From NCBI GenBank assembly GCA_021325385.1, contig JAJPHH010000172.1, positions 1 through 48,496 of the forward strand: DNA of 48,496 nt, written 5' to 3'. Position numbers and translations under genes: made by a program. The notes under the pieces were generated by a model. That model searched no databases and was not told the origin of the DNA. It was given only the letters and a program-made list of their open reading frames with translations. This document shows positions 26,574 through 48,496 of this stretch, in pieces. Every line of letters starts with the position of its first letter. The stretch's first letter is position 1. The stretch is from Alphaproteobacteria bacterium. GTDB lineage: Bacteria > Pseudomonadota > Alphaproteobacteria > Rhizobiales > Beijerinckiaceae.

Positions 26574-28091
26574 CTAGCCTCTCCTTCGCACGCGCACAGC
26601 TTGGTACGGCTTGCCGGGGAGGTGAATTCCGAAAGCCGCCTCCGGCTTGCCGCCGCGGATGGCGCCGCCGCGTTGGCGCAAAGCCGGCGAAACCGGCAGC
26701 GGCTTTTTCGCGAGCGGCGTGATCGTCATTTCCCAGGTGTCGATGAGGTCGATCTCGTAGTCGCCGTCCTCCATCGGCAAACCAACCGCCCATTGCAGCG
26801 GCTGGTGCTCGCCGAAATAAAGAAACCGGACGTCGCCGTCGACCGCGCCCGAAACGCGGGCGAACTCCCAGCGCTCCTCTACGGGTATGGGCGTCAGACC
26901 GTTCTTGACGTCCTGTTCGAGCAGGTCGCGGAGGAAGCCGATCCGCTTCCAGCTCTCGCCGCGCAATTCGCCGCCTTTGGACCACCATAGCAGGTCCTCC
27001 GGATGCATGTAGGTCTCGCCATGCCCGGCATAGCCGCCGCGCATGACTGTGATCCAGAACCGATGAACGAGCTCGCGCGGCGAGATATTGCCCCAGGGCC
27101 GCGGAATATTCCCTTCATATTCGGGCTCGTCGTTGACGATCGGCTTTCCCCATTCGGCCCGCCATTCCGCCGTTCGCTTGACGTCCCAATTCTGAATGCA
27201 GACGTGATCCACCCATGGCTTGCGATGGTCGAAATTCATCGAAGCTTCGCCGTTATGGATCGATTTGAGGTGGCGATAGGGATCGCACTCTTCGAGGATA
27301 TGGAAATACCGGTCCCATTGCGCGATCGGCTTGCAGTCGAGCAGGAAGTCGTATTCGTTGCCGAGCGACCACCAGACGTTGGAATAGGCCGCCAGCCGCG
27401 CCGCGAGATAGCGGACATAGCGAAAGTCTCGCTCAGCGCCCATGTCGCAATAGCCCCAGCGGTCGTAGGGGTGAAAGATGATGATGTCGGCTTCGATCCC
27501 GAGTTCGCCAAGCGCGCCGACTTGCCTTTCGAAATGGCGGAACATCGCCGGATTGGGCCGGTCGAAATCTTCTTTTCCGTCGTCGCCGACAACGAAGGCG
27601 CGATGGAGAGGCTCGTTGGAATTGTAGATATAGTCTTTTGGAAAGACGCCCATGCGGACCTTGTTGAATCGCGTCTTTGCGAGCGTCTGTAATGTCTGCG
27701 CCTGCATGTCCGCCGGCTGGTGCGTCCAGGCGTAGCAGGTCGTGCCGAACGGGAAAAAGGGCGCGCCGTCCTCGTAGGCGAAGTGGAAACGGTTTCTGAC
27801 CCGCACCGGGCCGCGCCGGCCCGGACGGGGAGGGACGCAAGCGAAGCCGCCGCTTTTTCCGTCAAGATCTCGCGCATTGGAGGAGGTGGCGAACGTCCAA
27901 GCGCCCTCCGTATCCGGCATGAAGCGCACGCGATAGACGCCTTCGTCGTCGTAGAAGCCGGGGACTTTCACTTGGCGCGAGCCGGACGAAAACGTCGCCT
28001 CGAGCGTCACGTCCACGTAAGGATTTCCCTCCGCCGGTCCTTCGAACGAGGCCTCGAAGATGTCCCATTTGGCGACTTGCGGCAGGGTCAT
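26574..28091 (-). CDS. DUF5060/DUF4038 (apiosidase-like) glycoside hydrolase, cytoplasmic
   Basis: 505 residues. An N-terminal beta domain (~5-100, DUF5060-like) precedes a TIM barrel (~105-400) of the DUF4038 apiosidase-like family (FHFAYEDGAPFFPFGTTCYAWTHQ, FNKVRMGVFPKDY), and a DUF5605-like C-terminal beta domain. Likely acid/base E246 is in WWSLGNEYDF and the nucleophile is E322 in VNDEPEYEG. There is no signal peptide, so it probably acts inside the cell on imported glycosides. DUF4038 contains the GH140 apiosidases. It is the last gene of a minus-strand cluster with a MalEFG-type importer, and the neighbouring operons look like D-apiose catabolism, so release of D-apiose from plant apiosides is the favoured role. 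Other uronic or pentose linkages remain possible. Confidence 0.72.
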   Translation of the reverse strand: MTLPQVAKWDIFEASFEGPAEGNPYVDVTLEATFSSGSRQVKVPGFYDDEGVYRVRFMPDTEGAWTFATSSNARDLDGKSGGFACVPPRPGRRGPVRVRNRFHFAYEDGAPFFPFGTTCYAWTHQPADMQAQTLQTLAKTRFNKVRMGVFPKDYIYNSNEPLHRAFVVGDDGKEDFDRPNPAMFRHFERQVGALGELGIEADIIIFHPYDRWGYCDMGAERDFRYVRYLAARLAAYSNVWWSLGNEYDFLLDCKPIAQWDRYFHILEECDPYRHLKSIHNGEASMNFDHRKPWVDHVCIQNWDVKRTAEWRAEWGKPIVNDEPEYEGNIPRPWGNISPRELVHRFWITVMRGGYAGHGETYMHPEDLLWWSKGGELRGESWKRIGFLRDLLEQDVKNGLTPIPVEERWEFARVSGAVDGDVRFLYFGEHQPLQWAVGLPMEDGDYEIDLIDTWEMTITPLAKKPLPVSPALRQRGGAIRGGKPEAAFGIHLPGKPYQAVRVRRRG

Positions 28092-28122
28092 TCTTTCCTC
28101 TTTTCGCGTCGAGGCCGCAGCC

Positions 28123-28989
28123 TTATTCCTTGACCGCGCCGGCGGTAAGGCCGCTGACGAAATAGCGTTGGAAGATCATATAGACGATCGTCGCCGGCAG
28201 GACGGTCATGACGATCGCGGCGTTGAGTTGGCCGTAGTCGCGGGAGAACTGGCTTTGGAACGACATCAGGCCAAGCGGCAGCGTCCAGGTGCTGTTGTCC
28301 TGTAGGATCACCAAGGCCATGGCGAATTCGTTCCAGGTTGCGACGAAGTCGAGGATCAGGAGCGCCGCCAAGGGGGGAAGCGACAGCGGCAGGAAGATTC
28401 GCCAGAAGATCGAGAAATGCGAGGCGCCGTCGATCAACGCCGCCTCGCTGAGTTCTCGCGGCAACTCCTTGAAGAAGCCGTGCAGAACGAAAACCTGATA
28501 AGGAATGCCGAAGGCGAGATAGGGCAGGATCACGCCGAGCTTGGTGTTGATCAGCCCAAAGCCGTTGACCAGCGTGAAAAGCGGGGCGAGCAGAACCTGG
28601 AAGGGAATCATCGTGCCGAAGACGATGAGCAGGAAAATCGCCCGCGCGCCGCGAAATTCGATCCGGCTGAGGACGTAAGCCGCCATCGCCGAGATCGCCA
28701 GGCCGAGCGGCACTTTGACGACGGTGATGACGGCGCTGTTGAAGACGGTGGTCGAGAATTTCCCGCGCGTCCAGGCGGCGGCGTAGTTGGTCCAATCGGG
28801 GTTCGTCGGCGGCGCGAAGGCGCTGGCGCCCATCACCGTCGAATTGGTCTTCAGCGAAGTGAAGATGATGAAGAGGAACGGCGCGATCCACAGAGCCGCA
28901 ACAACGATCAAGACCAGCCACAGCGCGACGAGAACCGGATCGATTCTGTCGGAGCCGGCCGGGCGAAAGGGATTTGCGAGCGCGGTCAC
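28123..28989 (-). CDS. Carbohydrate ABC transporter permease, MalG type
   Basis: 288 residues with six hydrophobic segments. The EAA loop is LSEAALIDGASHFSIFWRIFLPLSLPPLAAL, typical of CUT1 permeases. GTG at 28989 overlaps the stop of the MalF-type gene (GTGA), so they are translationally coupled. The glycoside hydrolase gene follows 31 bases downstream. No ATPase gene is present in this cluster; a shared MsmK/UgpC-type ATPase elsewhere would be required. Confidence 0.9.
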   Translation of the reverse strand: MTALANPFRPAGSDRIDPVLVALWLVLIVVAALWIAPFLFIIFTSLKTNSTVMGASAFAPPTNPDWTNYAAAWTRGKFSTTVFNSAVITVVKVPLGLAISAMAAYVLSRIEFRGARAIFLLIVFGTMIPFQVLLAPLFTLVNGFGLINTKLGVILPYLAFGIPYQVFVLHGFFKELPRELSEAALIDGASHFSIFWRIFLPLSLPPLAALLILDFVATWNEFAMALVILQDNSTWTLPLGLMSFQSQFSRDYGQLNAAIVMTVLPATIVYMIFQRYFVSGLTAGAVKE

Positions 28990-29876
28990 CGAACGCGCTC
29001 CTCGCGCCGCAAAGCCCATTGCAAGTAGGGGATCACGATCGCCAGCGTTATGAGCAGCAGGACGACCGAGATGGCGCTGCCGCGGCCGAAGTCGCCGAGT
29101 TGCATCGATTGCGTGAAAGCCCAGAGCGCCAGCATCTGCGTCGCTTGCGCCGGCCCGCCGCCGGTCATGCCATAGACGATGTCGAAGGCCTTGAGCGAAT
29201 TGATCGTCGAGAGGATCAGGACGATCGTGATGGTGGGTCGGAGCGCCGGGGTTCTCACATGCCAGAAGGTCTGCCAGGCGTTGGCGCCGTCGATACGCGA
29301 GGCCTCGACGAGCGCCTTCGACACGCTCTGCAGTCCGGCGAGAAACAGGACCATCGAGAATCCCGCGGTCTGCCAAACCGAAGCGACGAAGACCGAATAA
29401 AGCGCGACAGCGCCATCGCCGAGCCAATCCTGAATGACGCCCTGCAGGCCAAGGCTGGTCAGGACCGCATTGAAGAGCCCGAAAAAGGGGTCGTACATCC
29501 ACCGCCACATCGTGGCGACGGCGATGGGCGCGATGATCACCGGCATGTAGAAGAGCGCGCGCAGCGGCGTGCGCCACGGAATTTTCTGATCGAGACCGAG
29601 CGCCAGGGCAAAGCCGACGAGCGGCGGGAACACGATCGACAACACGGTCCAGATCGCCGTGTTGCGAAAAGCGGTCCAGAAGACCGGATCGAGCGCGAGA
29701 ATGCCGGCATAGTTGGAAAGCCCGACAAAAACTTTGTCGGCGGTGAGACCGTTCCAGCGCATGAAGCTGAGAACGACGACGTTGAGCATGGGATAGAGGG
29801 CGAAAACGCCGTAGACGATCAGCGCCGGCGCCAGCAGAAGGAGCCCCTGGGGCTGCGCCGATCTCCAGAACTTCAT
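28986..29876 (-). CDS. Carbohydrate ABC transporter permease, MalF/UgpA type
   Basis: 296 residues. Starting at the ATG at 29876, the chain reads MKFWRSAQPQGLLLLAPALIVYGVFALYP, a normal CUT1 permease start, with SD-like CAGGG directly upstream. The EAA loop is LVEASRIDGANAWQTFWHVRTPALRPT and MTGGGPAQATQMLALWAF is family-typical. It forms the membrane channel with the MalG-type protein. The longer frame upstream is a shadow of the binding-protein gene. Confidence 0.9.
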   Translation of the reverse strand: MKFWRSAQPQGLLLLAPALIVYGVFALYPMLNVVVLSFMRWNGLTADKVFVGLSNYAGILALDPVFWTAFRNTAIWTVLSIVFPPLVGFALALGLDQKIPWRTPLRALFYMPVIIAPIAVATMWRWMYDPFFGLFNAVLTSLGLQGVIQDWLGDGAVALYSVFVASVWQTAGFSMVLFLAGLQSVSKALVEASRIDGANAWQTFWHVRTPALRPTITIVLILSTINSLKAFDIVYGMTGGGPAQATQMLALWAFTQSMQLGDFGRGSAISVVLLLITLAIVIPYLQWALRREERVR

Positions 29877-29971: not shown

Positions 29972-31210
29972 CTATTTGCGGGCCGCGATGAACTTTTGCA
30001 ATTCGCCGGCGGCCGCTTTGGGATCGAGGCGATCGCTGGCGACTTCGTTGATGACGCGGAAATACTCGGTCGTCACATCGAGCGGAAAGGCCTGATCGCC
30101 GTTGACGAAAACGTCGTTGAATTGACCGAAGATTTTCGTCCAGGCGAGATCGAGCGGCTCCGTGCTCGTCGACTTGACGTTCTTGTTCACGTTTGCGGGG
30201 CCGCCGAAGAGATCGACATTGGCCTGCTGAACGGGAGTGGATTCGAGATAGTCGAGGAATTTCGCGGCGATATCCGGATTCTTGCTCTTGGTGCTGATAT
30301 AGTTGTACTCGCCAAATCCGTAGAGCCGACTCGCTCCCGGGAAGGGGAAGAGGCCATAATCGGCGAGCTTGTTGGCGTTGCGAAGCTGGCCGACCAACCA
30401 ATTGCCTTCGAGCATCATGGCGGCGCGGCCCGCCAGGAACAGATTGAACGCCTGATTGTTATCGATGCCCATGAACGGCTTCAGAAAGTATTTCGAGGTC
30501 CATTTGTGCATCTCCTCGAAGGATTTGGTCGCGCAGGGCTCGTCCGCCCAGTTGACCTTCATCGCCATCAGGGCGTCGTGCTTTTCGGGGCCGCACTGAA
30601 CTTCGAGAATTTCATCCATCAACCGCATGACGTGCCAGTTGACGGTCCCGCCGAAAGTAAAGGCCGGGACGCCGGCCTTGGCCAGCTTTTCCGCCGCGGC
30701 GACGAAATCATCATAGCTGGTCGGCGGCGCGCTAATCCCGGCCTTCTCGAACAGCGCCTTGTTGTAATAAACCGCCTCGCCGCGGAACGTGAAGGGCAGC
30801 CCGTAGCGGCCCCCTGAATATTGTTTCGAGAATGACAAAGCCGGCGCAATGAACTCGTCGTCCCATTTGTACTGGGCGTAATATTTGTCCATGGGCAAGG
30901 CCAAGCCGGACTTGATGAATTCCCCGCCAAGTCCGAGGCCCGCCCACATGAAATAGATGTCGGGGGCCTGATCGGAGCCGCCCGCGACGCGCAGCGCCGA
31001 TTTATGTTCATCAGTGCCGCGGTTTTCGAGCTGGACGGTAACGCCAGGGTTCTTGGCTTCGAAATCATGAATGATGGTTTCGAAGGCTTTCGCCATCTTC
31101 GGATTGTCGAAGGATAGCGTCCAGAACTTGATTTCCTGCGCCTGCGCCGTGGCGGGGGCGCTGACGATCGCGACGGACGCGGCAAGGCGCCTGAGCCATT
31201 TTCCCGACAT
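29972..31210 (-). CDS. Carbohydrate ABC transporter substrate-binding protein (MalE/UgpB type, SBP_bac_1)
   Basis: 412 residues. The signal peptide MSGKWLRRLAASVAIVSAPATAQA precedes QEIKFWTL. The mature chain has the family features FEAKNPGVTVQLENRGTDEHKSALRVA, PDIYFMWAG, YGLPFTFRGEAVYYNKALFEKAG and LFLAGRAAMMLEGNWLVGQL. The ATG at 31210 has an excellent Shine-Dalgarno GGGAGGAG. CUT1 binding proteins usually take di- or oligosaccharides, which fits a cluster that ends with an intracellular glycoside hydrolase. The regulator gene lies 222 bases upstream on the same strand. Confidence 0.9.
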   Translation of the reverse strand: MSGKWLRRLAASVAIVSAPATAQAQEIKFWTLSFDNPKMAKAFETIIHDFEAKNPGVTVQLENRGTDEHKSALRVAGGSDQAPDIYFMWAGLGLGGEFIKSGLALPMDKYYAQYKWDDEFIAPALSFSKQYSGGRYGLPFTFRGEAVYYNKALFEKAGISAPPTSYDDFVAAAEKLAKAGVPAFTFGGTVNWHVMRLMDEILEVQCGPEKHDALMAMKVNWADEPCATKSFEEMHKWTSKYFLKPFMGIDNNQAFNLFLAGRAAMMLEGNWLVGQLRNANKLADYGLFPFPGASRLYGFGEYNYISTKSKNPDIAAKFLDYLESTPVQQANVDLFGGPANVNKNVKSTSTEPLDLAWTKIFGQFNDVFVNGDQAFPLDVTTEYFRVINEVASDRLDPKAAAGELQKFIAARK

Positions 31211-31432: not shown

Positions 31433-32296
31433 TTACGACGCAATGATGATCCTGACGCCGGCGCGCTCGAAAGCCTGCGCGTCGGCGTCGGCGAGCCCGT
31501 CGTCGGTGATGAAGGCGTGGATCAGGCCGAGCCCGCCGAGCCGGGTGAACGAATTTCGATTGACCTTGGTCGAATCGGCGACGAGATAGACTTCGCTGGC
31601 CGCTTTGATCATCGCTTGTTTGATCGGCAGATCGGCGAAGCTCGGATAAGTCAGGCCGGCCTCCGTCGAAACGCCGGCGGTCGCCAGGAAGAGTTTTTCG
31701 GCGAAAATATTCTGCAAATATTCAGCCGATTTTTCGCCGCTCAGCGAGAGCGTCGGCGCCTTGAACTGGCCTCCCGGCATGTGGACGGAGAACGAGGGAA
31801 TTGCGCCGAGCGTCAGCGCGATGTTGAGCGCGTTGGTGATGACCGTCAGCCCCTCGCGCCCTGTCAAATGATTGGCGACCTCGGTGGTCGTCGAGCCGGC
31901 GTCGAGAATAATCGTCTCGTGATCGCGCACCAGGCCGGCGGCCACTTTGCCGATCTTGCGCTTGCGATCCATATTGGCGAGGTGCTGAAGGGATAAAGTC
32001 TGCACCTGCTGCGGCAGCGACTTGAGATAAGCGCCGCCATGGTCGCGGGTGACGAAGCCGTCTTGCTCCAGGCGCTCGAGGTCCTGTCTCACCGTCACTT
32101 CGGAGACGCCGAAGGCGGCGCTGAGGTCGCGCACCCGCGCGCTGCCTTCTTCCTGCAGCCATTCCAGAATCTTCATCCGTCGCGGCTCGGCGAGCAGCAC
32201 GCCGCGCGTTTCGGCCGGCGCGTTGCGGGAGGCAGCGGCGCGCCGCGCCTTTGGCGAAGCCTCTTTGTTCACAGCCAGTTTGATCCTACCGGCCAT
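31433..32296 (-). CDS. DeoR-family transcriptional regulator
   Basis: 287 residues. An unusually long basic N-terminus (~36 residues: MAGRIKLAVNKEASPKARRAAASRN...) precedes the DeoR winged helix (RRMKILEWLQEEGSARVRDLSAAFGVSEVTVRQDLERLE). The DeoRC effector domain has ILDAGSTTTEVANHL, VITNALNIA, FLATAGVS and VADSTKVNRNSF. Such regulators usually repress sugar operons and are released by a phosphorylated sugar. The ATG at 32296 has GAGGAA 7 bases upstream. It is divergent from the isomerase-transketolase-kinase operon and upstream of the MalEFG/hydrolase genes, so it may control both sides. Confidence 0.88.
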   Translation of the reverse strand: MAGRIKLAVNKEASPKARRAAASRNAPAETRGVLLAEPRRMKILEWLQEEGSARVRDLSAAFGVSEVTVRQDLERLEQDGFVTRDHGGAYLKSLPQQVQTLSLQHLANMDRKRKIGKVAAGLVRDHETIILDAGSTTTEVANHLTGREGLTVITNALNIALTLGAIPSFSVHMPGGQFKAPTLSLSGEKSAEYLQNIFAEKLFLATAGVSTEAGLTYPSFADLPIKQAMIKAASEVYLVADSTKVNRNSFTRLGGLGLIHAFITDDGLADADAQAFERAGVRIIIAS

Positions 32297-32539: not shown

Positions 32540-32581
32540 TTCAGAAACGGCCTGGTCGCGGCGGCGCAGGGAGGAAACCTG

Positions 32582-34039
32582 ATGCGAGCTTTCAAGAAGC
32601 CGATCACGCTGGGGCTGATCGTCGGCAGCCGGCTCTTCTTCAATGGCGCGCCCGCTCTCGCCGCGCGCGAGCAGGCGATCGCTCAGTTCGACAATCTCGG
32701 CGTCGCCGTCAAAACCTTGCCGGCCGAGGCGACCGAGAACGGCGCTGTTCAATCGCGCAAGGACGCGGCGCTCTATGGCGATTTCCTCCGCGCTCACCGC
32801 GACGAAATCGACGGCTTGGTAATTTCGCTGCCGAATTTCGGCGACGAAGTGGCGATCGCCGAATGCGTGACGCGCGCGGCGCTCAATGTCCCGGTTCTGC
32901 TTCAGGCGAGCAACGACGAAGTCGATCAGGTCGATGTTCACCGCCGCCGCGACGCATTCTGCGGCAAGATCTCGGTGACCAACAATTTTTACCAATATGG
33001 GATCCGCTTTACCGACACCTCTTCCCATACGCTCGACGTCGACGGGGCCGCCTTCCGCGACGATCTCAGACGGTTCAGCGCAATCTGCCGGACGGTGCGC
33101 GGCCTGAAGAACGCCCGGATCGGGGCGATCGGCGCGCGTACGCCGCCGTTCCATACGATGCGCTACAGCGAGAAGCTGCTGCAGGCGGCGGGGATCACGG
33201 TCGTCACCGTCGATCTCTCCGAGATCATCGCGACAGCCGCCGCTCTGTCCGAGGACGAGCCGCAGGTCAGAGCGAAGCTGGACGAGATTTTCGCCTATGG
33301 CTCGATTCCGAAGACGATCAAGCGCGAGAACATCGTCAAGCAGGCGCGCTTCTCGATCGCGGTCGATCGCTGGATCGAGGAGAACGAGTGCGACGCGTCG
33401 TCGATCCAATGCTGGCGCAGCATTCAGGACAATTTCGGCTGCGCCGCCTGTCTATCGATGAGCATGATGGGCGAGAAGCTCACGCCGAGCGCCTGCGAGG
33501 TCGACGTCATGGGCGCGGTCTCGATGTACGCCTTGGCGCTCGCGTCCGGCGCGCCGCCCGCAATTCTCGATTGGAACAACAATTACGGCTACGAAGCCGA
33601 TAAATGCGTCTGCACGCATTGCGGCAACTTCCCCAAGAGCTTTATCGGCGAGGCGCTGGAAATCTCGAATTTGGATGTCCTCGGCGAGGTGATCGGCCGC
33701 GAAAAATGCTTCGGCGCCGTCAAGGGCAAGGTGAAAGCCGGGCCGATGACCTTCTTCCGCCTCTCGACCGACGATCGGCATGGCGCGATCAAGGCCTATA
33801 TCGGGGAGGGCGCTTTCACCGACGATCCTTTCCCCATGGATGGCGGCATTGCGGTGACGAGCGTGCCGAACCTTCGCGCTCTGCTGAGCTTCATTTCGCG
33901 CAACGGTTTCGAGCATCACGTCGCGATGGTGCGCGGCCGCCACGCGGCGATCGTCGAGGAGGCGGTCGTCAACTATCTCGATTGGCCGCTCTATCGCCAT
34001 GAGCGGCCGGAGCCGGCGACGCCGATTCTGCTCCGCTAA
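32582..34039 (+). CDS. L-fucose/L-arabinose isomerase family protein (candidate D-apiose isomerase)
   Basis: 485 residues. Starting at the ATG at 32582 (GGGAGGAAACC upstream) the protein begins MRAFKKPITLGLIVGSRLFF, with family features LVISLPNFGDEVAIAECV, GKISVTNNFYQYGI, DRWIEENECDASSIQCWRSI and the Cys-rich KCVCTHCGNFP, as in COG2407 proteins. Family enzymes interconvert aldoses and ketoses with a divalent metal. It is the first gene of an operon with a split transketolase and an FGGY kinase, so it should supply the kinase with a ketose. By context this is D-apiose to D-apulose; D-arabinose to D-ribulose is the main alternative. The apiose isomerase I know of is a TIM-barrel protein, so this would be a non-homologous replacement. 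Confidence 0.7.
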   Translation: MRAFKKPITLGLIVGSRLFFNGAPALAAREQAIAQFDNLGVAVKTLPAEATENGAVQSRKDAALYGDFLRAHRDEIDGLVISLPNFGDEVAIAECVTRAALNVPVLLQASNDEVDQVDVHRRRDAFCGKISVTNNFYQYGIRFTDTSSHTLDVDGAAFRDDLRRFSAICRTVRGLKNARIGAIGARTPPFHTMRYSEKLLQAAGITVVTVDLSEIIATAAALSEDEPQVRAKLDEIFAYGSIPKTIKRENIVKQARFSIAVDRWIEENECDASSIQCWRSIQDNFGCAACLSMSMMGEKLTPSACEVDVMGAVSMYALALASGAPPAILDWNNNYGYEADKCVCTHCGNFPKSFIGEALEISNLDVLGEVIGREKCFGAVKGKVKAGPMTFFRLSTDDRHGAIKAYIGEGAFTDDPFPMDGGIAVTSVPNLRALLSFISRNGFEHHVAMVRGRHAAIVEEAVVNYLDWPLYRHERPEPATPILLR

Positions 34040-34070: not shown

Positions 34071-34895
34071 GTGTCGACTTCTCATCCGCTTGCGGAATTG
34101 ACCCGGGCCAAGGCCCGCCAGATCCGGCGCCGCGCGCTCGGCATGGTCTATCGCGCCAAACAGGGCCATCCCGGCGGCGACATGTCGGTCGCCGACATTC
34201 TGGCGACGCTCTATTTCGGCGCGCTGCGCGTCGATCCCGCCAATCCGAACGATCCCAAACGCGATCGTTTCATTCTCAGCAAGGGCCATTGCACGGGCGC
34301 GCTCTATGCGACGCTGGCGGAGCGGGGCTTCATCCCGATCGAGTCGCTCGATACGTATATGCAGCCGCTGTCGTTGCTGAACGGGCACCCCAATCGCAAT
34401 TATACGCCCGGCGTCGAGACCAATACCGGTCCGCTCGGCCATGGCGTGCCGGTCGCGATCGGCGTCGCGATCGCCGGCCAGATCGACCGCGCCGACTATC
34501 GCGTCTTCGTCGTGGTCGGCGACGGCGAGTTGCAGGAAGGCAGCAATTGGGAGGCGGCGTTGACCGCCGGCCACCGCGGGCTCGCCAATCTGACCCTGAT
34601 CATCGACCGTAACGGCCTGCAGCAGGGCGCGCGCACGGAGGACACGGCGAAGCTGGAGCCCCTCGCCGATAAATGGCGCGCCTTCGGCTGGGACGTGGTC
34701 GAAGTCGACGGGCACGACCATGACGCCTTGCTGGCGATTTTCACCGCGCCGGCCGGCGGTCGGTCCAAGCCTCTCTGCGTCATCGCCCATACCCATAAAG
34801 GGCAGGGCGTCTCGTTCATGCGCGACCAGGTCTTTTGGCATCACGGCGCGCTCAGTCAATCGCAGTACGAACTCGCCTTGCAGGAGATCGGCTGA
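34071..34895 (+). CDS. aptA: Transketolase, N-terminal (TPP-binding) subunit; candidate apulose-4-phosphate transketolase A
   Basis: 274 residues, the N-terminal half of transketolase as a separate subunit. Motifs: GHPGGDMSVADILATLYF, SKGHCTGALYATLAERGF, TGPLGHGVPVAIGVAIA and the thiamine-diphosphate motif GDGELQEGSNWEAALTAGHRGLANLTLIIDRN. GTG at 34071 is used because homology starts ~8 residues later and the upstream frame overlaps the isomerase gene. TGATG overlap with subunit B. Split transketolases with an FGGY kinase occur in the D-apiose pathway, where they convert apulose 4-phosphate plus glyceraldehyde 3-phosphate to dihydroxyacetone and xylulose 5-phosphate. A general pentose role cannot be excluded. 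Confidence 0.8.
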   Translation: MSTSHPLAELTRAKARQIRRRALGMVYRAKQGHPGGDMSVADILATLYFGALRVDPANPNDPKRDRFILSKGHCTGALYATLAERGFIPIESLDTYMQPLSLLNGHPNRNYTPGVETNTGPLGHGVPVAIGVAIAGQIDRADYRVFVVVGDGELQEGSNWEAALTAGHRGLANLTLIIDRNGLQQGARTEDTAKLEPLADKWRAFGWDVVEVDGHDHDALLAIFTAPAGGRSKPLCVIAHTHKGQGVSFMRDQVFWHHGALSQSQYELALQEIG

Positions 34896-35857: not shown

Positions 35858-38371
<2,514 letters not shown>

Positions 38372-40678: not shown

Positions 40679-41745
40679 CGAGCGAAGTCCTGCCCGGGAC
40701 CAAAGCCAATCCGGCCAAGCGGCAGAAGCGGCCGCTGGCGCTTCTGCTGATGAGCTTTCGCACGTTCATCGCGTTGATCGTCGTCTTCGTTTTCTTCAGC
40801 GTCACGACGCCGAACTTTCTCGATGTCCCGACCCTGGTCATCGTCGCCAAGCATGTCGCGGTGAACGCCATCCTCGCGATCGGCATGACGTTCGTCATCC
40901 TGACCGCCGGCATTGACCTTTCCGTCGGCTCGATCGTCGGCGTCTCCGGCATGATCGCCGGCGCGCTGTTGACGCGCGGAATTCCGGTGAACATTTTCGA
41001 CATCACGATTTTTCCGAACGTCGTTGAGACGATCCTGATCACTCTGGCGGTCGGCGCCGGGATCGGCCTGGTCAACGGGCTGCTGATCACCCGGCTCAAC
41101 GTCGCCCCCTTCATCGCGACGCTCGGCACGCTTTACATTGCCCGCGGCGCGGCTTTGCTGATCTCCGACGGCGCGACCTTCTCGAACCTCGTCGGCGACC
41201 CGCGCTTCGACAATACCGGCTTTCCGTTCCTCGGCTCCGGCGCGTTGGCGGGAATCCCGGTGTCGATCGTCGCGCTCGCAATATTCGCCGCCGTCGCCGC
41301 CTATGTCGCGGCGCGGACGCCGTTCGGGCGGCATGTCTATGCGGTGGGCGGCAACGAGCGCGCGGCGGCGCTTTCCGGCGTGCGCGTCAATCTCGTCAAA
41401 GTCTGCGCCTACATGATTTCCGGCTTCTGCGCCGCTTTCGCCGGCCTCGTCATCGCCTCCGAACTGGTGGCGGCCCATCCGGCCTCGGGCGAGACGTTCG
41501 AGCTCAACGCCATCGCCGCCGCCGTTCTTGGCGGGACCTCGCTATCGGGCGGCCGCGGCACGATCGCCGGCACCTTGGTCGGCGCCTTCGTGATCGGCGT
41601 GCTCTCCGACGGTCTTGTCATGCTCGGCGTCAGTTCGTTTTGGCAGATGGTGATCAAAGGCCTGGTCATTATCGCCGCGGTCGTCCTCGACCAGATGCAG
41701 CGCCGCATGTACCGCCGCTTCGCGCTGCAGGCGCAGCTTGGCTGA
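40675..41745 (+). CDS. Ribose-type sugar ABC transporter permease (RbsC-like)
   Basis: 356 residues, hydrophobic, BPD_transp_2 family, with AILAIGMTFVILTAGIDLSVGSIVG, APFIATLGTLYIARG, VGGNERAAALSGVRV and LGGTSLSGGRGTIAGTLVG. It is the only permease here, so it would form a homodimer. It is the last gene of the eight-gene plus-strand operon starting at 32582 and converges on the apionate operon. Confidence 0.9.
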   Translation: MTSEVLPGTKANPAKRQKRPLALLLMSFRTFIALIVVFVFFSVTTPNFLDVPTLVIVAKHVAVNAILAIGMTFVILTAGIDLSVGSIVGVSGMIAGALLTRGIPVNIFDITIFPNVVETILITLAVGAGIGLVNGLLITRLNVAPFIATLGTLYIARGAALLISDGATFSNLVGDPRFDNTGFPFLGSGALAGIPVSIVALAIFAAVAAYVAARTPFGRHVYAVGGNERAAALSGVRVNLVKVCAYMISGFCAAFAGLVIASELVAAHPASGETFELNAIAAAVLGGTSLSGGRGTIAGTLVGAFVIGVLSDGLVMLGVSSFWQMVIKGLVIIAAVVLDQMQRRMYRRFALQAQLG

Positions 41746-41753
41746 CCGCATGC

Positions 41754-41877: not shown

Positions 41878-42726
41878 TTAGGCCGCAGGCGGATTGCAGA
41901 TCTCTTTGACCGACTTGAGCACGGATTCAGGGGAGAAGACCCGGTCGAGCCATCCGTCCTTGAAGATAACCGGCTTCGCCTGCGCGATCGCCTGCAGCGC
42001 GCCGTCGGAAAACCGCCCCTCCGGGAAAACGCCGAAGGCGATGGCGAGCTCGATGTTGAGATGGCCGATGATGAAATCGACCGCCGCCTGCTTGGGGACG
42101 CCGCGGCGCACCGCCTCGTCAGTCGCTTCGCGCAGCGCCAGCGCAAAAGTCGCGCCAACCGTCTCGGATAGCGCCGGCTCGAGGATCGCGAGCTGCTCCA
42201 CCGTGCAACGGTGCGCCCTCATCACCGGCTTGTAGATCTGGCGGGCGATCTCCTCGCATTCGGCGTAATGCGCTTCGGGCCCTTGCATGAGCGCGCAGAC
42301 AATGTGCTGCTTCGCATGGACGCCGCCGAAATAGTCCGCCTTCGCCTTGGGATCGACTTCGTCATTGAAGATGGGCGGGTGACAGGGATGGGTGACGAAA
42401 TAAGTGATGTCCGCGCGCTCCGGCAGCTCGCCGGCATGCGGCGCCGCGGCGTCGAGCATGATGACTTTCGCGCCCGGTCGCAAATCGGCGACAAAGGTCT
42501 TCAGAATTTTGCCGATCAGCCGATCGGGCACGGCCATGACGACCGCGTCGGCCGACGAGATCGCCTGGCCTTGCTCCATGCATTCGACGCCCATGGACTG
42601 TTTGAGGCGCGCCCGCGCCTCCTCCGAGACTTCGACGTGGTCCACGTCGAAACGCGAGCCCTTGAGATTGGCCGAGAGGCGCAGGCCCATCTTTCCGCCG
42701 GCGCCCATCAATGCGATCTTTGTCAC
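41878..42726 (-). CDS. apnO: D-apionate oxidoisomerase
   Basis: 282 residues. An N-terminal Rossmann domain (VTKIALMGAGGKMGLRLSANL) is followed by ADAVVMAVPDRLIGKIL, MLDAAAPHAGEL, FVTHPCHPPIFNDEVD and a helical C-terminal domain of the phosphogluconate-dehydrogenase-C-like type, as in ApnO. ApnO oxidises and rearranges D-apionate to 3-oxo-isoapionate with NAD. GTG at 42726 is favoured: GGAG lies six bases upstream and it makes the same four-base overlap with oiaK seen elsewhere in this operon. ATG at 42738 is the alternative. Fourth gene of the apnL operon. Confidence 0.78.
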   Translation of the reverse strand: MTKIALMGAGGKMGLRLSANLKGSRFDVDHVEVSEEARARLKQSMGVECMEQGQAISSADAVVMAVPDRLIGKILKTFVADLRPGAKVIMLDAAAPHAGELPERADITYFVTHPCHPPIFNDEVDPKAKADYFGGVHAKQHIVCALMQGPEAHYAECEEIARQIYKPVMRAHRCTVEQLAILEPALSETVGATFALALREATDEAVRRGVPKQAAVDFIIGHLNIELAIAFGVFPEGRFSDGALQAIAQAKPVIFKDGWLDRVFSPESVLKSVKEICNPPAA

Positions 42727-44129
42727 GTCGTTCTCCATTCATTGATCGCGCGGCCCGCGCGAACCGATCCAAAAAAATCCGGCGCGCCCATTTGGCCGCC
42801 CTTGAGCGCGATCTCGAAGCCGTCGAGTCCAGACTCGGCGGAGAAAACCCGGCATAGCGGCGATCCCGGCGCGAGCGGCGCAATCGCTTCGAGCGCATAG
42901 CCGCCCAGGGCGCCCATCGCGAAGCCGGATGTGTCGCCGCCCGAAATCGCGCCGCGCGTCAACCGCGCCTCGCGCGCGACCCGCCCGACGATTTCGCCGA
43001 GTCCGGAGCCAATTCTGGCGCTGATCGCCGCCGGTTCCAGCCGGGCCGATGACAATTTCTCGCGCAACGACGCAATTGTGGGATCGTGCGGCCCACGGGC
43101 GGTCGCAACGAGCGGCGATCGGCCGCGCGACAGCGCCGCGCGCGCGCCGTCGACGGCGGCCTCGACCGCAGCGCGCCAATCCCGTTCGTCGAAAGCTGCG
43201 ACCGCGTCGAGCGCGACCACCTCGAACCCATTGGCTTCCGCCCATTCGATCTGGGCGGCCGTCGCGGCGGAAGTCGAGCCGGACGCGACCACGACTTGCT
43301 TTATCTCACGCGTTTGTACGCGCGGAGCGAAAGCGGGGAGCGCGTCGGACGCGCGCCAATGCGCGATCAGCGCGTATTCGAGTCCTTGCGAGCCGATCGC
43401 GAAGAGCCCGGCGCCGCGGTTCTCCCAGATCAGCGCGCCGACCCAGCGCAGCGTCTCGTCGTCGACGACATCGAGCGAAATGGTCGACCTTCCCGCGCGG
43501 CATTCCTCTTCGAAACGCCGGCGCCCTGATCCGTCTTTCATCGCGGCGAAATCAATCAGGCCGATCGGCTGCGTCGTCTGTTCGGCGATGTGCAGCCTCA
43601 CGTCCGCCTCATGCATGGGCGTAACCGGGTGGCGCTGCATCGCCGGATGCCGGTCCAGGCGATAGACGGCGTCCGCATGCGCGGCGAACAAATTGCCGAA
43701 CGCCTGGTACCGGCCGATCGCCGGCGCGGCGACGACCAGCGGGCGCCATTGCGCCGCGCCGGGACGCGCGCCGAAAATCGGCGCGCCGATGTCGATGGCG
43801 CGGCCGATCGAGCCGATGGTGGGCGATGAATCGAGCGTCGAGCAGATTTTATAATGCGTCACCGGCGCGCCGAGCGCGGCGAGCGCCGCGAAAGCTTTTG
43901 GCAATTCGGCGTCCATCCAACTCGGCGGCTGCGCGCGCGCGACGCTGGCGACGCCGATGGCGCGATAGCCGGAGAATCGCTCGATCTGCTCGGCAGTGGG
44001 CGGCTTGACGAACATCACCGAGGGCAACCCGGCGAAGGTCATCACCTCCATCACGGCCGAAGAGCCGGTGAAGTCGTCGCCGTAAAAGGCCAGCAGCAGG
44101 CCGGCGGGCAGTTCGGACGCCTCGCTCAC
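42723..44129 (-). CDS. oiaK: 3-oxo-isoapionate kinase (four-carbon acid sugar kinase, DUF1537 family)
   Basis: 468 residues. The N-terminal domain begins LLLAFYGDDFTGSSAVMEVMTFAGLPSVMF, the hallmark of the DUF1537 kinases, with KICSTLDSSPTIGSIGRAID after it. The C-terminal nucleotide-binding domain has VVVASGSTSAATAAQIEWAE and RGAISGGDTSGFAMGALGGYAL. The family phosphorylates acid sugars; in an operon with ApnL, ApnO and a RuBisCO-like protein the substrate should be 3-oxo-isoapionate, giving the 4-phosphate. GTG at 44129 overlaps the stop of the RuBisCO-like gene (GTGA). Confidence 0.78.
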   Translation of the reverse strand: MSEASELPAGLLLAFYGDDFTGSSAVMEVMTFAGLPSVMFVKPPTAEQIERFSGYRAIGVASVARAQPPSWMDAELPKAFAALAALGAPVTHYKICSTLDSSPTIGSIGRAIDIGAPIFGARPGAAQWRPLVVAAPAIGRYQAFGNLFAAHADAVYRLDRHPAMQRHPVTPMHEADVRLHIAEQTTQPIGLIDFAAMKDGSGRRRFEEECRAGRSTISLDVVDDETLRWVGALIWENRGAGLFAIGSQGLEYALIAHWRASDALPAFAPRVQTREIKQVVVASGSTSAATAAQIEWAEANGFEVVALDAVAAFDERDWRAAVEAAVDGARAALSRGRSPLVATARGPHDPTIASLREKLSSARLEPAAISARIGSGLGEIVGRVAREARLTRGAISGGDTSGFAMGALGGYALEAIAPLAPGSPLCRVFSAESGLDGFEIALKGGQMGAPDFFGSVRAGRAINEWRTT

Positions 44130-45385
44130 GCCGAACGCATCCTCAGCGCGGCGGCGAGGGCCGGATGGCTCGCAGCGTAGCTTTCCGCAGGAATTCCCGC
44201 CATCGCCGCTTCCCAGGCTTCTCTGAGCGCGCGAACGCCTTCGCTGGGGCCGCCGGGATGGGCCATGATGCCGCCGCCTGCGGCGAAGATCAGGTCCGTC
44301 GATCCGAGCGCGGCGAACGTGCCGGCCGCCTGCTTCGCCGATTGGCCGGATGAGAAGACCGGCATGGTCAGGCAAGGCTTGTCGGCGAAGATCGGCGTCA
44401 GGCAGGCGCGGGCGGATTGGATGACGCTCTCGTCGGATTCGCTGAACTTATTGGCGAGGCCGTTGACATGCATATGGTCCGCGCCGGCGAGCCGCCAGAT
44501 CTTTTGCCAGGCCACATAGGACCAGCCGAGCGCCGGATGGCGAGACAAATAACCCCAGCCGTTGCGATGGGCGTGGATCGGCAGCCTCGAATGGCGTCCG
44601 AGCGCGATCATGCCGGCGACGCCGACCGAATTGAGGCTCGCCATCACGCAAGTCCCGCCAAGGCTTTCGACGAGATCATGGCGCCGCCGCATCTCGTCGA
44701 TCTCGCCGGTTATGTTGAAAGCGTACATCGCCTTGCGGCCGGTTCGGTCGGCGCGCCGGTTGATCACGCGCATCACCGCCGCTGCGCGCTGCGCGAGGGG
44801 ACAATCCGGCCCATCCGATTGCAGCTCGTCGTCCTTGATGAAATCGATGTCGGCTTGGCAAAGCCTGTCGACGAGATCCGCGGTCTGCTCCGGCGTGAGG
44901 CCGATCGAAGGTTTGATGATCGTGCCGATCAATGGCCGTCGCTCGACCCCGGCGAGCTTTCGGGTTCCGTCAATGGCGAATTTCGGTCCAGGATAGGCGG
45001 CGGCGAAAGCGTCGGGCAGACGAATATCGAGAATCCGCAGGCCGGAAAATTGCTTCAGCTCGAAGAGATTGCCGGCGACGGTCGCCATCAGATTGGGCAG
45101 CGACGGACCGATATTGGCGAGCGGCCAGGACAAAGTCGCGCGGGCCGTGACCCGCTTCGCGTCGACGGACGGCGCGCCGGATCCTGGTAGACTCGGCGAT
45201 TCCGCCGGGCCGAGAATTTCGAGCTTTTCGACCCGCGCGGCGGAGCGCGCCTTGAGCTCGGGCGTCTCGCCGGGGACTGGGACGAAGGTTCCCGACGATT
45301 GCTCGCCCGCCATCGCCTCGACGGCTTGGCGGGGATCGTACGCAGTTTCGATGAAATAATGGGCTTCGATGCGCTCGACGCTCAT
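44126..45385 (-). CDS. RuBisCO-like protein of the apionate pathway (OiaX decarboxylase or OiaT hydrolase)
   Basis: 419 residues, RuBisCO large-subunit fold. Active-site correspondence: K158 in GTIIKPSIGL (RuBisCO K175; the next RuBisCO lysine, K177, is Ser here). K184, D186 and E187 in DFIKDDELQ correspond to the carbamylated K201 and magnesium ligands D203/E204, all kept. HAHRNG at 271-276 replaces HRAMH. K313 in GLANKFSES sits at the loop-6 lysine position. AAGGGIMAHPGGP is the phosphate-binding segment. It should act on 3-oxo-isoapionate 4-phosphate, either decarboxylating it (OiaX) or splitting it to 3-phosphoglycerate and glycolate (OiaT); sequence inspection alone does not decide. It is not expected to fix CO2. 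ATGA overlap with apnL. Confidence 0.82.
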   Translation of the reverse strand: MSVERIEAHYFIETAYDPRQAVEAMAGEQSSGTFVPVPGETPELKARSAARVEKLEILGPAESPSLPGSGAPSVDAKRVTARATLSWPLANIGPSLPNLMATVAGNLFELKQFSGLRILDIRLPDAFAAAYPGPKFAIDGTRKLAGVERRPLIGTIIKPSIGLTPEQTADLVDRLCQADIDFIKDDELQSDGPDCPLAQRAAAVMRVINRRADRTGRKAMYAFNITGEIDEMRRRHDLVESLGGTCVMASLNSVGVAGMIALGRHSRLPIHAHRNGWGYLSRHPALGWSYVAWQKIWRLAGADHMHVNGLANKFSESDESVIQSARACLTPIFADKPCLTMPVFSSGQSAKQAAGTFAALGSTDLIFAAGGGIMAHPGGPSEGVRALREAWEAAMAGIPAESYAASHPALAAALRMRSA

Positions 45386-47313
45386 CTTGGGCCTCCTGCG
45401 AGCTCGGCGAAATCGAGAAATGCGACGGCGTAGGGCGGCAACGCGATCTTGGCTTGAACGGGGCGCAAGGCGCGCTCGACCCAATCCGGATCGCCGGCCG
45501 CCGCTTTGACCCGCGACGCGTCGAGCACGGCGCCGCGGCCGCCCAGCGGGCAGGCGATGGTCCTCGAGTCGGGCGTTCCGTTGGCGAGCAGGACGATCGC
45601 GCCAGTTCCGCGCTCGGCGGCGACCGCGTGAATGCGCTTGTCGCCGGTGATCGGATGGAGACGCGAGCGGCCTTGCATGTCCGCCAACCAAGCCAGAACA
45701 TGAAAGCTCGGGGCGAGGCGTCCGGCGTCGTCGAGCACCGCGGAAGGGCCGCCGGCGCTTGCGAGCGTCAGCAATTCGATTCCGGCGCGCTCGCTGGCGG
45801 CGGCGACGCCGACGAGCCAAGCCGCGCCGAACAGCGCTTGCGCCCGTGGATCTTGCGCGCTCATGGTGCGGCGGCGCCGCTCCAAATTCGGAGACAGCGC
45901 GGCGCCGTAGGGATTGCCGCGCATGGCGATCGAGACGAGGCCGAGCCGATACGATTTGCCCGGAGCGATCCTGGTCGCGCTGCGGAAAATGTCGGGCAGG
46001 GCCTCGAGCGTCTGAAACACCGATTCGTCGTCAGCCGCATGGACCGTGGCGCTCGAGCCATGCGTCAAATAGTCGATCTCGGACGCGTCCGGTCGGCAGC
46101 GGTTAAGCTCGGTGAAATTGGTCAGAACGCCGCCGCCGATCCGCGCCGATGGAAATGCGCTCCGAGCGACGCGGAACGCGTCGGCGGGAGCGGCGCCTTT
46201 TGGCCATGGCCCGCCGGGCTGGTAGCTCTTGAGATATGCCGCCGGCAGCGCGATCACATGGTCGGGGGCGACGCCGAGCCGAGCGAGCGCAGCGGCGGCC
46301 CCTTCCAATTGACGGGCGAGTTCGCCCCTTTCGTCGGCGACGATGAGTTCGAGATCGAAACGAGATCTTACCGATTCGAGGCGCCGCAAGGCGAACTTAT
46401 CGCGAAGGTCTAAGCGAAGGAGGCGGCAGAGCCCGTCCAACGGCCACGGCAATGGCCTTTCCGCCCAGTCCGAATCCATGGCGACGGCCAGTTCTGGGAC
46501 TTTCTCGGCGGTCGTCGAGCGCTCGAGGCGCAGCGCCGGGGCCGCCGCGGCCGAGGCGGCATTTGCAACCTCGCCAGAGAAGGCGAGCCGCAATTCCTGT
46601 TCGATGACGTCGCCCGACCTGACTGGAAAAGCGTCCGGGAATGTCGCGGTGCGAACGTACGACTTATAGGACGCGTCGGACCAGTTTCGCTGGTCCTCCA
46701 TTTCGAAAGCGGCGCCCATCATTTCGATGGCGACGGATGCGCCGCGAACAGCGTAGCTCATCGCCACGAAATCGGCGACGGGCTGCGACGGCGAAATATC
46801 GGCGGGAAATGTCGCGTTGAAGGTTTCTCCGCTTGGCCGTCGCAACGTCATAGGGCAGCCGGCCAGCTCGGAAATCGGATGAAGCAGCGTGAACCCGGCG
46901 CGGCAGAGCCGAGCATCACGCTTGACCTCGATGCGCAGCGAGAACGTCGCCCGACCGCCGGCTTCTATGCTCAGCTCGAAACGGCCGGCAAAGCTTGCGT
47001 CATGCGTTTCGAATTCGCGCGTCCATCGGACAGGGTCGGATTGCGGAAACCGCGCGCTGATCGTGCGCGTCGGCAGCGTGGCCCAGTTCTCGTCGCGGAT
47101 CGGATAGTCGATCGCCCGGACAAGCTCCACGCCTCGCCAGGCGAGCTCTCGGATCGCGGTCTCGCCGAGGCGAAACGAAAGCGGGCCGCAGGCATGCGCG
47201 AGAAGAGCCTCGGGAGGCTCCGACGTCCCAAAAAGTTCTTCGAGGTCGCTGTCCACTGCCGCTAAAACGCCTTCAAGCCCATACTGAGTATACCAGTTAG
47301 CGGAGGCGAGCAA
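45382..47313 (-). CDS. apnL: D-apionate lactonase
   Basis: 643 residues as drawn. The N-terminal beta domain (ACGPLSFRLGETAIRELAWRGVELVRAI, RDENWATLP) and the strongly conserved FEMEDQRNWSDASYKSY (203-219) match the ApnL family, which opens D-apionolactone to D-apionate. The remainder looks like a degenerate glycoside-hydrolase-type barrel (DHVIALPAAYLKSYQPGGPWP, GGVLTNFTELNR). The start is uncertain: the only standard codon is TTG at 47313 with GCAGGG directly before it. Upstream in frame the sequence continues plausibly (ISDPELQIATNAAG) with no ATG/GTG/TTG, and an ATT preceded by CAGGA lies there. First gene of the operon; a GntR-type site overlaps codons 5-11. Confidence 0.75.
   Translation of the reverse strand: MLASANWYTQYGLEGVLAAVDSDLEELFGTSEPPEALLAHACGPLSFRLGETAIRELAWRGVELVRAIDYPIRDENWATLPTRTISARFPQSDPVRWTREFETHDASFAGRFELSIEAGGRATFSLRIEVKRDARLCRAGFTLLHPISELAGCPMTLRRPSGETFNATFPADISPSQPVADFVAMSYAVRGASVAIEMMGAAFEMEDQRNWSDASYKSYVRTATFPDAFPVRSGDVIEQELRLAFSGEVANAASAAAAPALRLERSTTAEKVPELAVAMDSDWAERPLPWPLDGLCRLLRLDLRDKFALRRLESVRSRFDLELIVADERGELARQLEGAAAALARLGVAPDHVIALPAAYLKSYQPGGPWPKGAAPADAFRVARSAFPSARIGGGVLTNFTELNRCRPDASEIDYLTHGSSATVHAADDESVFQTLEALPDIFRSATRIAPGKSYRLGLVSIAMRGNPYGAALSPNLERRRRTMSAQDPRAQALFGAAWLVGVAAASERAGIELLTLASAGGPSAVLDDAGRLAPSFHVLAWLADMQGRSRLHPITGDKRIHAVAAERGTGAIVLLANGTPDSRTIACPLGGRGAVLDASRVKAAAGDPDWVERALRPVQAKIALPPYAVAFLDFAELAGGPR
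47281..47298. promoter_or_regulatory. Second GTATAC-type operator, inside the start of apnL
   Basis: On the minus strand this reads AACTGGTATACTCAGTAT. Its first 12 bases are identical to the site at 48182-48201, and GTAT recurs at the same spacing. It lies within codons 5-11 of apnL as drawn. A regulator bound here could block transcription or initiation of the apnL operon. Confidence 0.5.
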
Positions 47314-47341
47314 CCCTGCGGCGTTCGTCGCAATCTGAAGC

Positions 47342-48181
47342 TCAGGGTCTGAAATGGTCCTGATGGTAAAGCTTGTTGGCGCGGTTGAGATGATCAGCGG
47401 TCAGTCGCGCCGCCTCGGCCGGATCGCCGCGTTCGATCGCCTCGAGAATTTGCCGATGCTCGCTCAGCGTCAATTGCTCGAAGCCCGGCTTGCGGACAAG
47501 ATCGATATGAAATTGCGCCAGCCAGGCGAACAAAGCCTGGCTCAGATTGGCGAAGATCGGATTGCCGCTGACGACGGCGATGCGATGGTGAAAGCGGCCG
47601 TCGGCCTGAAGGAAAGCGTTGGAATCGAGCCGGGCGCGCTCCTGCTCGGCGAGGATCGCGCGGAGCTCGGCGAGATCGGCCGGCGTGCGTTTACGGGCGG
47701 CGATCTCCGACATGTTCTTCTCGAACGTGGCGCGAGCCTCCTTGAGATGGTCGAGCGTAGCCGGCGAATTCATCAGCACATGCCGCATCGTCTCGCTCAT
47801 GCTGCTCATCATCCGCTCGAATGACGGCGCAGCGACGCGCGGCCTTTCGCCGTGATTGATCTCGATCAGCCCCATGCGTTTGAGATTCTGCATGGCCTCG
47901 CGGATCGAGGGACGCCCCACCGCGTAGGTCTGCATCAGCTCCCGCTCGGAGGGCAGGGGATCTCCGGGGCGAAGATTTTCCGCCTGGATGATCGCCAACA
48001 GCCGGTTCTGCACGAGATCGGCGAGTTTCGGCCGGACGATCGGATTTTGATTGCTCAGAGACGAGCTCCTCGAATTGGCGCGCGACGGGCGTCCGGGCGC
48101 GAGATTTGGTCGCCGCGCCGGGCGGCCCGCCAGCTTTCCAATCCCAGCCGCGATTTTCAACCGGGCGCTTGCCAATTTCAT
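47342..48181 (-). CDS. FadR-type GntR transcriptional regulator
   Basis: 279 residues from the ATG at 48181. A basic, Pro/Ser-rich N-terminal stretch of ~45 residues precedes the GntR winged helix (KLADLVQNRLLAIIQAENLRPGDPLPSERELMQTYAVGRPSIREAMQNLKRMGLIEI). The C-terminal FCD effector domain has its metal-type ligands in FLQADGRFHHRI, LSEHRQIL and LTADHLNRAN. The ATG lacks a Shine-Dalgarno sequence and touches the operator, so the mRNA would be leaderless. A CTG at 48058 preceded by GAGGAG is an unusual but better-spaced alternative that would start just before the DNA-binding domain. It is divergent from the binding protein at 48260 and 28 bases upstream of apnL. Confidence 0.85.
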   Translation of the reverse strand: MKLASARLKIAAGIGKLAGRPARRPNLAPGRPSRANSRSSSLSNQNPIVRPKLADLVQNRLLAIIQAENLRPGDPLPSERELMQTYAVGRPSIREAMQNLKRMGLIEINHGERPRVAAPSFERMMSSMSETMRHVLMNSPATLDHLKEARATFEKNMSEIAARKRTPADLAELRAILAEQERARLDSNAFLQADGRFHHRIAVVSGNPIFANLSQALFAWLAQFHIDLVRKPGFEQLTLSEHRQILEAIERGDPAEAARLTADHLNRANKLYHQDHFRP

Positions 48182-48201
48182 AACTGGTATACTATGTATA
48201 C
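48182..48201. promoter_or_regulatory. GntR-type operator in the divergent promoter
   Basis: The sequence AACTGGTATACTATGTATAC contains two GTATAC palindromes nine bases apart. It directly abuts the GntR ATG and lies 58 bases before the binding-protein ATG. Matched by the site at 47281-47298. Probably bound by the GntR regulator itself. Confidence 0.55.
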
Positions 48202-48259
48202 ATCTCGCGTTCAAGCGGCCAAGCGCCTTGCCCAACGCGCAAACCCAAGGGAGGAGCCC

Positions 48260-48496
48260 GATGAAACCATCTGTCGCCTTGTTCGCCGCCGCGGCGCTAG
48301 TTGGCGCTGTCGCGTCCGCTCAAGCCAGTCCGCAGGCGCCCGTCGTCGCCTTGTCCAACGCCTATTACGGCAACACTTGGCGCCATCAGATGGTCGAGGC
48401 GTTCGAGGCCGCGGCCAAGCAAGCCAAGAGCGAAGGCAAGATCGCCGAGTACATCGTCATGAACGGCGACGGCTCGGTGGCGCAGCAGAACAGCCA
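48260..48496 (+). CDS. Periplasmic sugar-binding protein (RbsB-like), 3' truncated by window end
   Basis: The first 79 codons are visible. The signal peptide MKPSVALFAAAALVGAVASA is cleaved near AQA-SPQ. The mature N-terminus VVALSNAYYGNTWRHQMVEAFEAAAKQAK and the segment YIVMNGDGSVAQQNS match the Peripla_BP_4 family. Shine-Dalgarno GGGAGGAG at 48248-48255. It is controlled by the same short divergent region as the GntR regulator of the apionate operon, so apiose, apionate or a related lactone is the likely ligand (inference). Confidence 0.82.

Follow-up and report, generated by a model that had tools for sequence, protein, structure and literature searches.

Gene content and organization of the locus

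The window analyzed here is the whole of one contig (C128; JAJPHH010000172.1), 48,496 bases long, from the 5.35 Mb assembly GCA_021325385.1 of an alphaproteobacterium of the Beijerinckiaceae (Rhizobiales, the order to which Ancylobacter and Xanthobacter also belong), which is in 209 contigs and 97.9% complete. Between position 26,574 and the contig end (26.6 kb onward) it carries three units, which probably make up a catabolic island for apiose released from plant glycosides. Apiose is a widespread plant sugar, found in rhamnogalacturonan II and in flavonoid and other glycosides. Unit 1, on the minus strand, codes for a DeoR regulator, a CUT1 solute-binding protein, two CUT1 permeases and a hydrolase. 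Unit 2, on the plus strand and divergent from DeoR, comprises an isomerase, the N- and C-terminal parts of a transketolase, an FGGY kinase, RbsB, DUF2291, RbsA and RbsC. Unit 3, on the minus strand and convergent with unit 2, comprises a GntR regulator followed by ApnL-like, RuBisCO-like, OiaK-like and ApnO-like genes. By their coordinates, neighboring genes overlap or almost touch within each operon. The families that a preliminary description, made from the sequence alone, had named at these places were borne out gene by gene by Pfam, NCBIfam and BLAST; Peripla_BP_4 is also among the Pfam families matched. As far as sequence can tell, the island is an unusual joining of known and well-formed pathways, with the first oxidative step either missing or encoded elsewhere.

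The predicted non-oxidative arm

Unit 2 opens with a putative ApsI-type D-apiose isomerase (32582-34039; Fucose_iso_C), assigned by Pfam, synteny and tree, and continues with the two transketolase subunits, AptA-like (34071-34895; Transketolase_N) and AptB-like (34892-35857; Transket_pyr/C in a separate gene), and an AplK-like FGGY kinase (35854-37407), all three also placed by trees. The importer genes that follow encode an RbsB-type, predicted D-apiose-binding protein (37427-38371), a DUF2291 lipoprotein (38481-39134; Pfam, synteny), the ATPase RbsA (39131-40678) and the permease RbsC (40675-41745), the last two recognized solely through BLAST against E. coli SE15. When the SE15 cluster was compared with 22 window proteins, its RbsC (54% identity), RbsB (52%), RbsA (49%), AptA (46%), AplK (44%), AptB (44%) and DUF2291 protein (31%) all found their best match in this one block; the two SDR genes and the regulator of that cluster had no match at 1e-5 among the same 22 proteins. 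According to PMC13001218, which we follow in the names ApsI, AplK and AptAB, apiose can serve as the only carbon source for strains with an SE15-type cluster. The window isomerase is 47% identical to proteins of Sodalis, Rahnella and Klebsiella that are sited between transketolase and kinase in the three enterobacterial records. Thus, a split transketolase, an FGGY kinase and an apiose importer stand in one locus homologous to the cluster of the apiose-growing strains and, with the synteny of the isomerase, the seven best matches in one block lend good support to the earlier prediction of a non-oxidative route. The RbsB protein, 72% identical to that of Microvirga, is also very close to PDB entries 5ibq and 4ry0 (464 bits to 5ibq), the former of which we take to hold alpha-D-apiose.

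In trees, the closest relatives of the unit 2 proteins come from corresponding gene sets in other Alphaproteobacteria (G015, G574, G915, G931 and G084). For the kinase, the FGGY family name alone is insufficient to call it an apulose kinase, because it also passes the glycerol-kinase subfamily model by 0.9 bits (498.9 versus 498); the argument is made by context and tree. Two other identities were rejected: a plain GlpK, in that a 12-row tree puts the kinase together with the majority of the cluster kinases and separates it from SE15 GlpK, the one GlpK included, and a sulfo-transketolase pathway for the isomerase/transketolase set, which scores 93.5 bits against the cut-off of 700 in the NCBIfam SftI model NF048012.

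Elsewhere, ApsI-like isomerases (46-69%) occur at L235, L236 and L241 with no transketolase or kinase match in the stretches read, and Bosea sp. WAO has two split transketolases beside ApnO-RLP-OiaK (L160:1463-5100; RLP, RuBisCO-like protein) and no ApsI-like isomerase in its genome at 1e-30.

The proposed apionate arm and the affinity of its RuBisCO-like protein

Among the names used for this arm, ApsD, ApnO and OiaT are general background; ApnL, OiaK and OiaX are also found in NCBIfam. Unit 3 encodes, from the contig end inward, a GntR/FCD regulator (47342-48058; Pfam; 87% to the L094 regulator and 53-61% in several relatives), a divergent ApnL-like predicted apionolactonase (45382-47313), the RLP (44126-45385; RuBisCO_large), an OiaK-like predicted 3-oxo-isoapionate kinase (42723-44129; SBD_N/NBD_C) and an ApnO-like predicted apionate oxidoisomerase (41878-42738; PGDH_C). 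At a threshold of 0.001, Pfam finds nothing in the ApnL-like protein, which the NCBIfam ApnL model recognizes over residues 27-589; the same model gives 312.8 bits in Shinella and 899 in Microvirga. The ApnO-like protein, 72% identical to a Microvirga ApnO-type protein, is a PGDH_C oxidoreductase lying in an OiaK/RLP operon, and its NCBIfam matches are weak and generic only. Upstream of GntR, the motif GTATAC-TAT-GTATAC (48187-48201) has its sole exact match in the window (shuffled sequences gave a mean of 0.05 at up to two mismatches); GTATAC is absent from the stretches checked in 12 relatives, and this candidate GntR operator stays a lead only. Divergently, on the plus strand, a gene for another CUT2 solute-binding protein begins (48261-48496, ATG at 48261) and is cut by the contig end; its product is 79-81% identical over 54-57 amino acids to Microvirga proteins (L095/L103) and 51% over 47 amino acids to one of Hoeflea (L157).

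The preliminary description had left open to which of two known reactions the RLP belongs. PMC6302742 reports decarboxylation and transcarboxylation/hydrolysis of 3-oxo-isoapionate 4-phosphate by proteins of Agrobacterium K84 and Xanthobacter ATCC BAA-1158. The window RLP is 61% identical to the protein of Xanthobacter Py2 versus 44-46% to OiaX members, and Py2 has one strong RLP candidate, its second match reaching 148 bits. We take BAA-1158 to be Py2, G448 (locus L194) to be its genome, and the two reactions to be named respectively, i.e. decarboxylation for K84 and transcarboxylation/hydrolysis for BAA-1158. The products of the OiaT reaction are 3-phosphoglycerate and glycolate. Across the order, 20 of 297 genomes pass the OiaX cut-off, and the window RLP falls in a second band at about 360-490 bits. 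In a 126-row tree, built by a quick method and with many weak inner forks, the 20 OiaX rows are split with support 100 from the 106 others, which include the window and Py2. Further, the residue of the window is that of the OiaT side in 19 of 19 diagnostic columns, defined with the window excluded as those invariant both in 20 OiaX and in 16 hand-picked OiaT-side proteins and differing between them. By identity, tree and diagnostic columns, the RLP is thus placed on the OiaT side and not with OiaX. This placement leads to a prediction of 3-phosphoglycerate and glycolate as its products, which the preliminary description had not decided. It also assigns to the OiaT side a large group of RLPs that score below the OiaX cut-off, and product predictions would have to be revised in many genomes. 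The same genome encodes a second RLP (G000:C15:587-1699, L064), 27% identical to that of the window.

Proposed apioside import and hydrolysis

The hydrolase of unit 1 (26574-28091) has the architecture DUF5060-Apiosidase (PF13204)-DUF5605, with 78.2 bits to the Pfam Apiosidase model. It stands with CUT1 permeases of the MalG (28123-28989) and MalF (28986-29876) types and a CUT1 solute-binding protein (29972-31210), all assigned by Pfam, and with the DeoR-family regulator (31433-32296; Pfam), which is 66-72% identical to the DeoR proteins that accompany this gene set in G574, G915, G931, G015 and G084. BT1012 is the characterized GH140 apiosidase, and the window enzyme is a putative apiosidase. 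It is probably intracellular, because no signal peptide is seen by eye in its N-terminus (MTLPQVAKW).

The CUT1 genes and the hydrolase recur together in Rhizobium phaseoli/anhuiense. The hydrolase shares about 70% identity with its Rhizobium relatives (70% with that of R. anhuiense), and the MalG-type permease, the MalF-type permease and the binding protein are 71%, 73% and 61% identical, respectively, to their Rhizobium counterparts; in both records read, out of 100 matching records, the hydrolase adjoins the CUT1 genes. There, hydrolase and CUT1 genes stand downstream of RbsB-DUF2291-RbsA-RbsC-Gfo/Idh-'hypothetical'-DhaKL (two records), in which the Gfo/Idh shares 67% identity with an ApsD-type protein of Microvirga, and the 'hypothetical' shares 55% with Microvirga ApnL. 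The window shares the CUT1-hydrolase unit and the RbsB-DUF2291-RbsA-RbsC importer with this ApsD-ApnL-type locus but differs from it in that the latter has the Gfo/Idh, the ApnL-type gene and DhaKL, while the annotation of the 25 kb read lists neither a fucose-isomerase-type gene nor a transketolase. This recurrence makes the earlier proposal of release from glycosides stronger than could be told from the window alone. A distant hydrolase (27%) with CUT1 genes is paired with an OiaT-side operon at L077 and L096 (PF13204 checked in L077 only).

A nucleoside-hydrolase gene is annotated beside CUT1 genes in Microvirga (L037:21724-22623), with a look-alike by eye at L077:13013-13969; perhaps it is another apioside hydrolase.

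Comparison with known systems and phyletic distribution

Each of the two routes is already known singly, and their linkage in the window is a variant of known systems. With the clusters of E. coli SE15 and Pectobacterium the window shares the split transketolase, FGGY kinase and RbsB-DUF2291-RbsA-RbsC, but it has DeoR instead of a sugar-binding regulator and adds the CUT1/hydrolase unit and the oxidative operon. The E. coli cluster is without the isomerase, ApsI being known in that of Pectobacterium, whereas the Sodalis, Rahnella and Klebsiella clusters have it as in the window. On the oxidative side, the Py2 OiaT locus likewise holds ApnO-type, RLP and OiaK-type genes together, but shows no match to ApnL, ApsD or the non-oxidative queries in the 19.9 kb read. 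A Microvirga ossetica plasmid locus (L037) resembles the window in its apiose-type RbsBAC, RLP (76%), OiaK, ApnO and CUT1 genes and differs in its ApsD-type Gfo/Idh and in an ApnL that passes the model at 899 bits; in the 31 kb read, neither a fucose-isomerase-type gene nor a transketolase is annotated. A further parallel is Hoeflea sp. YIM 152468 (L157, L240), where both modules lie within about 22 kb, the DeoR is 68% identical and no ApsD-like gene is present in that stretch; it differs in gene order, in having an SMP-30-type gene and in lacking a CUT1/hydrolase match in the stretches read.

The isomerase occurs in four of 385 genomes of the class at E 1e-30, the window's own included, and the other three are without an RLP of the window's type. 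It is found in seven of 80 RLP-bearing genomes that were hand-chosen (30 genomes, 20 with OiaX, plus 50 of 80 loci). The difference (7/80 versus 3/384; odds ratio 12, Fisher p 0.0003) is between two non-random samples. The full non-oxidative set of isomerase, transketolase, kinase and importer is present in four of the seven (G015, G084, G931, G915), the isomerase of the remaining three (G959, G949, G119) being without it in the stretches read. Among the 80 chosen genomes, both arms share a contig only in Hoeflea (L157, G915), with about 7 kb from RLP to isomerase; G015, G084 and G931 have the two arms on different contigs of draft genomes. The pairing is conserved despite rearrangement, which suggests that it is functional. 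We recognized no paper describing one locus with both routes in the literature searched, most subscription papers being outside its coverage. A Rhodobacteraceae strain is reported to grow on apiose with an oxidative cluster (PMC11747546), and apiose is only mentioned in PMC10103415.

Functional interpretation

In the mechanism proposed for the island, the substrates, reactions and regulation are all predicted from the observed gene content, order, orthology and subclade. The CUT1 importer would bring in an apioside, from which the cytoplasmic PF13204 hydrolase would free D-apiose; free apiose would also enter via RbsB-DUF2291-RbsA-RbsC. Under the control of DeoR, ApsI would convert apiose to apulose, AplK would phosphorylate the latter, and AptAB would split apulose 4-phosphate into central metabolism. 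In the second operon, controlled by GntR, ApnL would hydrolyze apionolactone, ApnO would rearrange and oxidize apionate, OiaK would phosphorylate the resulting 3-oxo-isoapionate, and the OiaT-type RLP would cleave the product, with 3-phosphoglycerate and glycolate predicted. The preliminary description had inferred both D-apiose routes side by side, which is partly supported: the non-oxidative set is there, as is the oxidative set from ApnL onward, and the part missing from the window is ApsD.

A number of observations weigh against this picture. The OiaK-like and ApnL-like proteins match their NCBIfam models over nearly the full length but below the cut-offs (NF042436, 528.6 bits versus 700; NF049900, 357 versus 750), and the RLP reaches 460.5 bits in the OiaX model NF042437, also below its cut-off of 700. 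When the OiaT reference is limited to the two Xanthobacter proteins, the window matches these at 36 of 61 columns and OiaX at 10, and it matches neither at 15. In identity the kinase favors SE15 AplK (44%) over SE15 GlpK (40%) only slightly, and two further isomerase/transketolase clusters (L210, L211) have kinases that the tree places with GlpK. Three of the seven isomerase matches in the RLP-bearing genomes are without a transketolase in the stretches read, and the isomerase family may for this reason be wider than apiose. The sole PDB match of the hydrolase at E 0.1 is 4n0r, titled 'putative glycoside hydrolase'. As to the dehydrogenase, genome searches with ApsD queries give no match on C128, in agreement with its earlier reported absence from the window; L080 and L084 have the same GntR/binding-protein layout with, in addition, a Gfo/Idh between ApnL and RLP that the window lacks; and the one standout ApsD-like gene of the genome is unlinked (C34:11923-12930, about 45% identical, 422 bits to the ApsD alignment, the next 112.6).

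In relatives, the ApsD-like Gfo/Idh proteins form two main subclades and a small Microvirga branch, one subclade typically occurring with the apiose-type importer and the other often between ApnL and RLP. Against this background, a possible if tentative account of the missing step is that the non-oxidative arm would burn apiose and the GntR operon, which has a CUT2 binding protein to itself, would burn D-apionate or apionolactone formed extracellularly and then imported, no ApsD being needed. The operon, which carries no ApsD in it or elsewhere on the contig, is flanked by a separate binding protein and regulator. In Hoeflea, the other linked double locus, no ApsD-like gene is seen in the stretches read and the genome's best match is 205 bits, versus 553-566 for the two best of G100, and in Py2, an OiaT organism, there is only a partial match of 72 bits. 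Further, among 50 non-duplicate loci that have full flanks and carry both RLP and ApnO, 34 have no ApsD nearby (locus counts use thresholds of 45% identity and half the length), a frequency that weakens the idea that lacking ApsD is a hallmark of the double locus. However, the ApnL-like gene is kept, which the product of ApsD would need, and the contig breaks just beyond the operon, where Microvirga loci with the same binding protein (L095, L097, L103) have an adjoining Gfo/Idh.

Alternatively, the oxidative arm would start from apiose, with the C34 Gfo/Idh as the apiose dehydrogenase, which we consider rather unlikely. Beyond its score, this protein joins the ApsD-like proteins of the clusters, apart from the genome's other Gfo/Idh (fork 92/98), but does so as a branch of its own inside neither main subclade. 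Moreover, within the first 20 kb of C34, a contig of 28.6 kb, there is no isomerase, transketolase, kinase, ApnL, ApnO, OiaK, RLP or apiose-type RbsB match, and only generic CUT2 and SDR homologs match there besides the Gfo/Idh.

Still more doubtful is an ApsD to the right of the window in DNA absent from the assembly. The break lies inside the binding-protein gene, the rest of which did not turn up in the assembly (the best long matches of the Hoeflea relative are at 30-34%); contig C92 was rejected as the continuation, its first gene reading as a LacI-type regulator and its Gfo/Idh being 31% identical. The Gfo/Idh beside the equivalent Microvirga gene would fit such a location, but the assembly is 97.9% complete, and the nearest relative, L094, itself in a fragmentary assembly, also has none between ApnL and RLP, its genome's best match being 93 bits. 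It is improbable that the substrate of the GntR operon is a different branched or C5/C6 acid and that its place beside the apiose genes reflects chance or the use of a related plant acid: the RLP clade is wider than apiose, because 24 of 74 non-duplicate full-flank RLP loci are without ApnO at the 45% identity threshold, some with SDR genes, but the operon keeps its ApnL- and ApnO-type genes and Hoeflea has the same pairing with apiose genes.

Returning to the three-unit apiose island, its linked routes and glycoside import allow one to ask directly for what reason a single cell retains the two and from which substrate the RuBisCO-like arm is supplied. A possible answer, offered tentatively, is a two-substrate machine in which apiose would be used by the transketolase route and ready-made, imported apionate or apionolactone by the OiaT RLP arm, giving 3-phosphoglycerate and glycolate. 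If this holds, free apionate would be a natural plant-derived nutrient pool, and the double locus of the window bacterium and Hoeflea would have been selected for use of both forms.

Related and neighboring loci

Operons of OiaT-side RLP and OiaK that include SDR genes but give no match to ApnO were observed at L106, L109, L113, L117, L122, L158, L169 and L040 (at about 10-18 kb). Such ApnO-less operons may serve another acid. On Azospirillum and Bradyrhizobium plasmids (L038, 17.8-23.4 kb; L041, 17.7-23.0 kb), RLP and OiaK adjoin a TRAP transporter, an SDR-type dehydrogenase and a pyruvate kinase. Within the window itself, another CUT2 importer set at 10849-16426 comprises RbsA, two RbsC and a binding protein together with a PF01261 isomerase/epimerase, as identified by Pfam.

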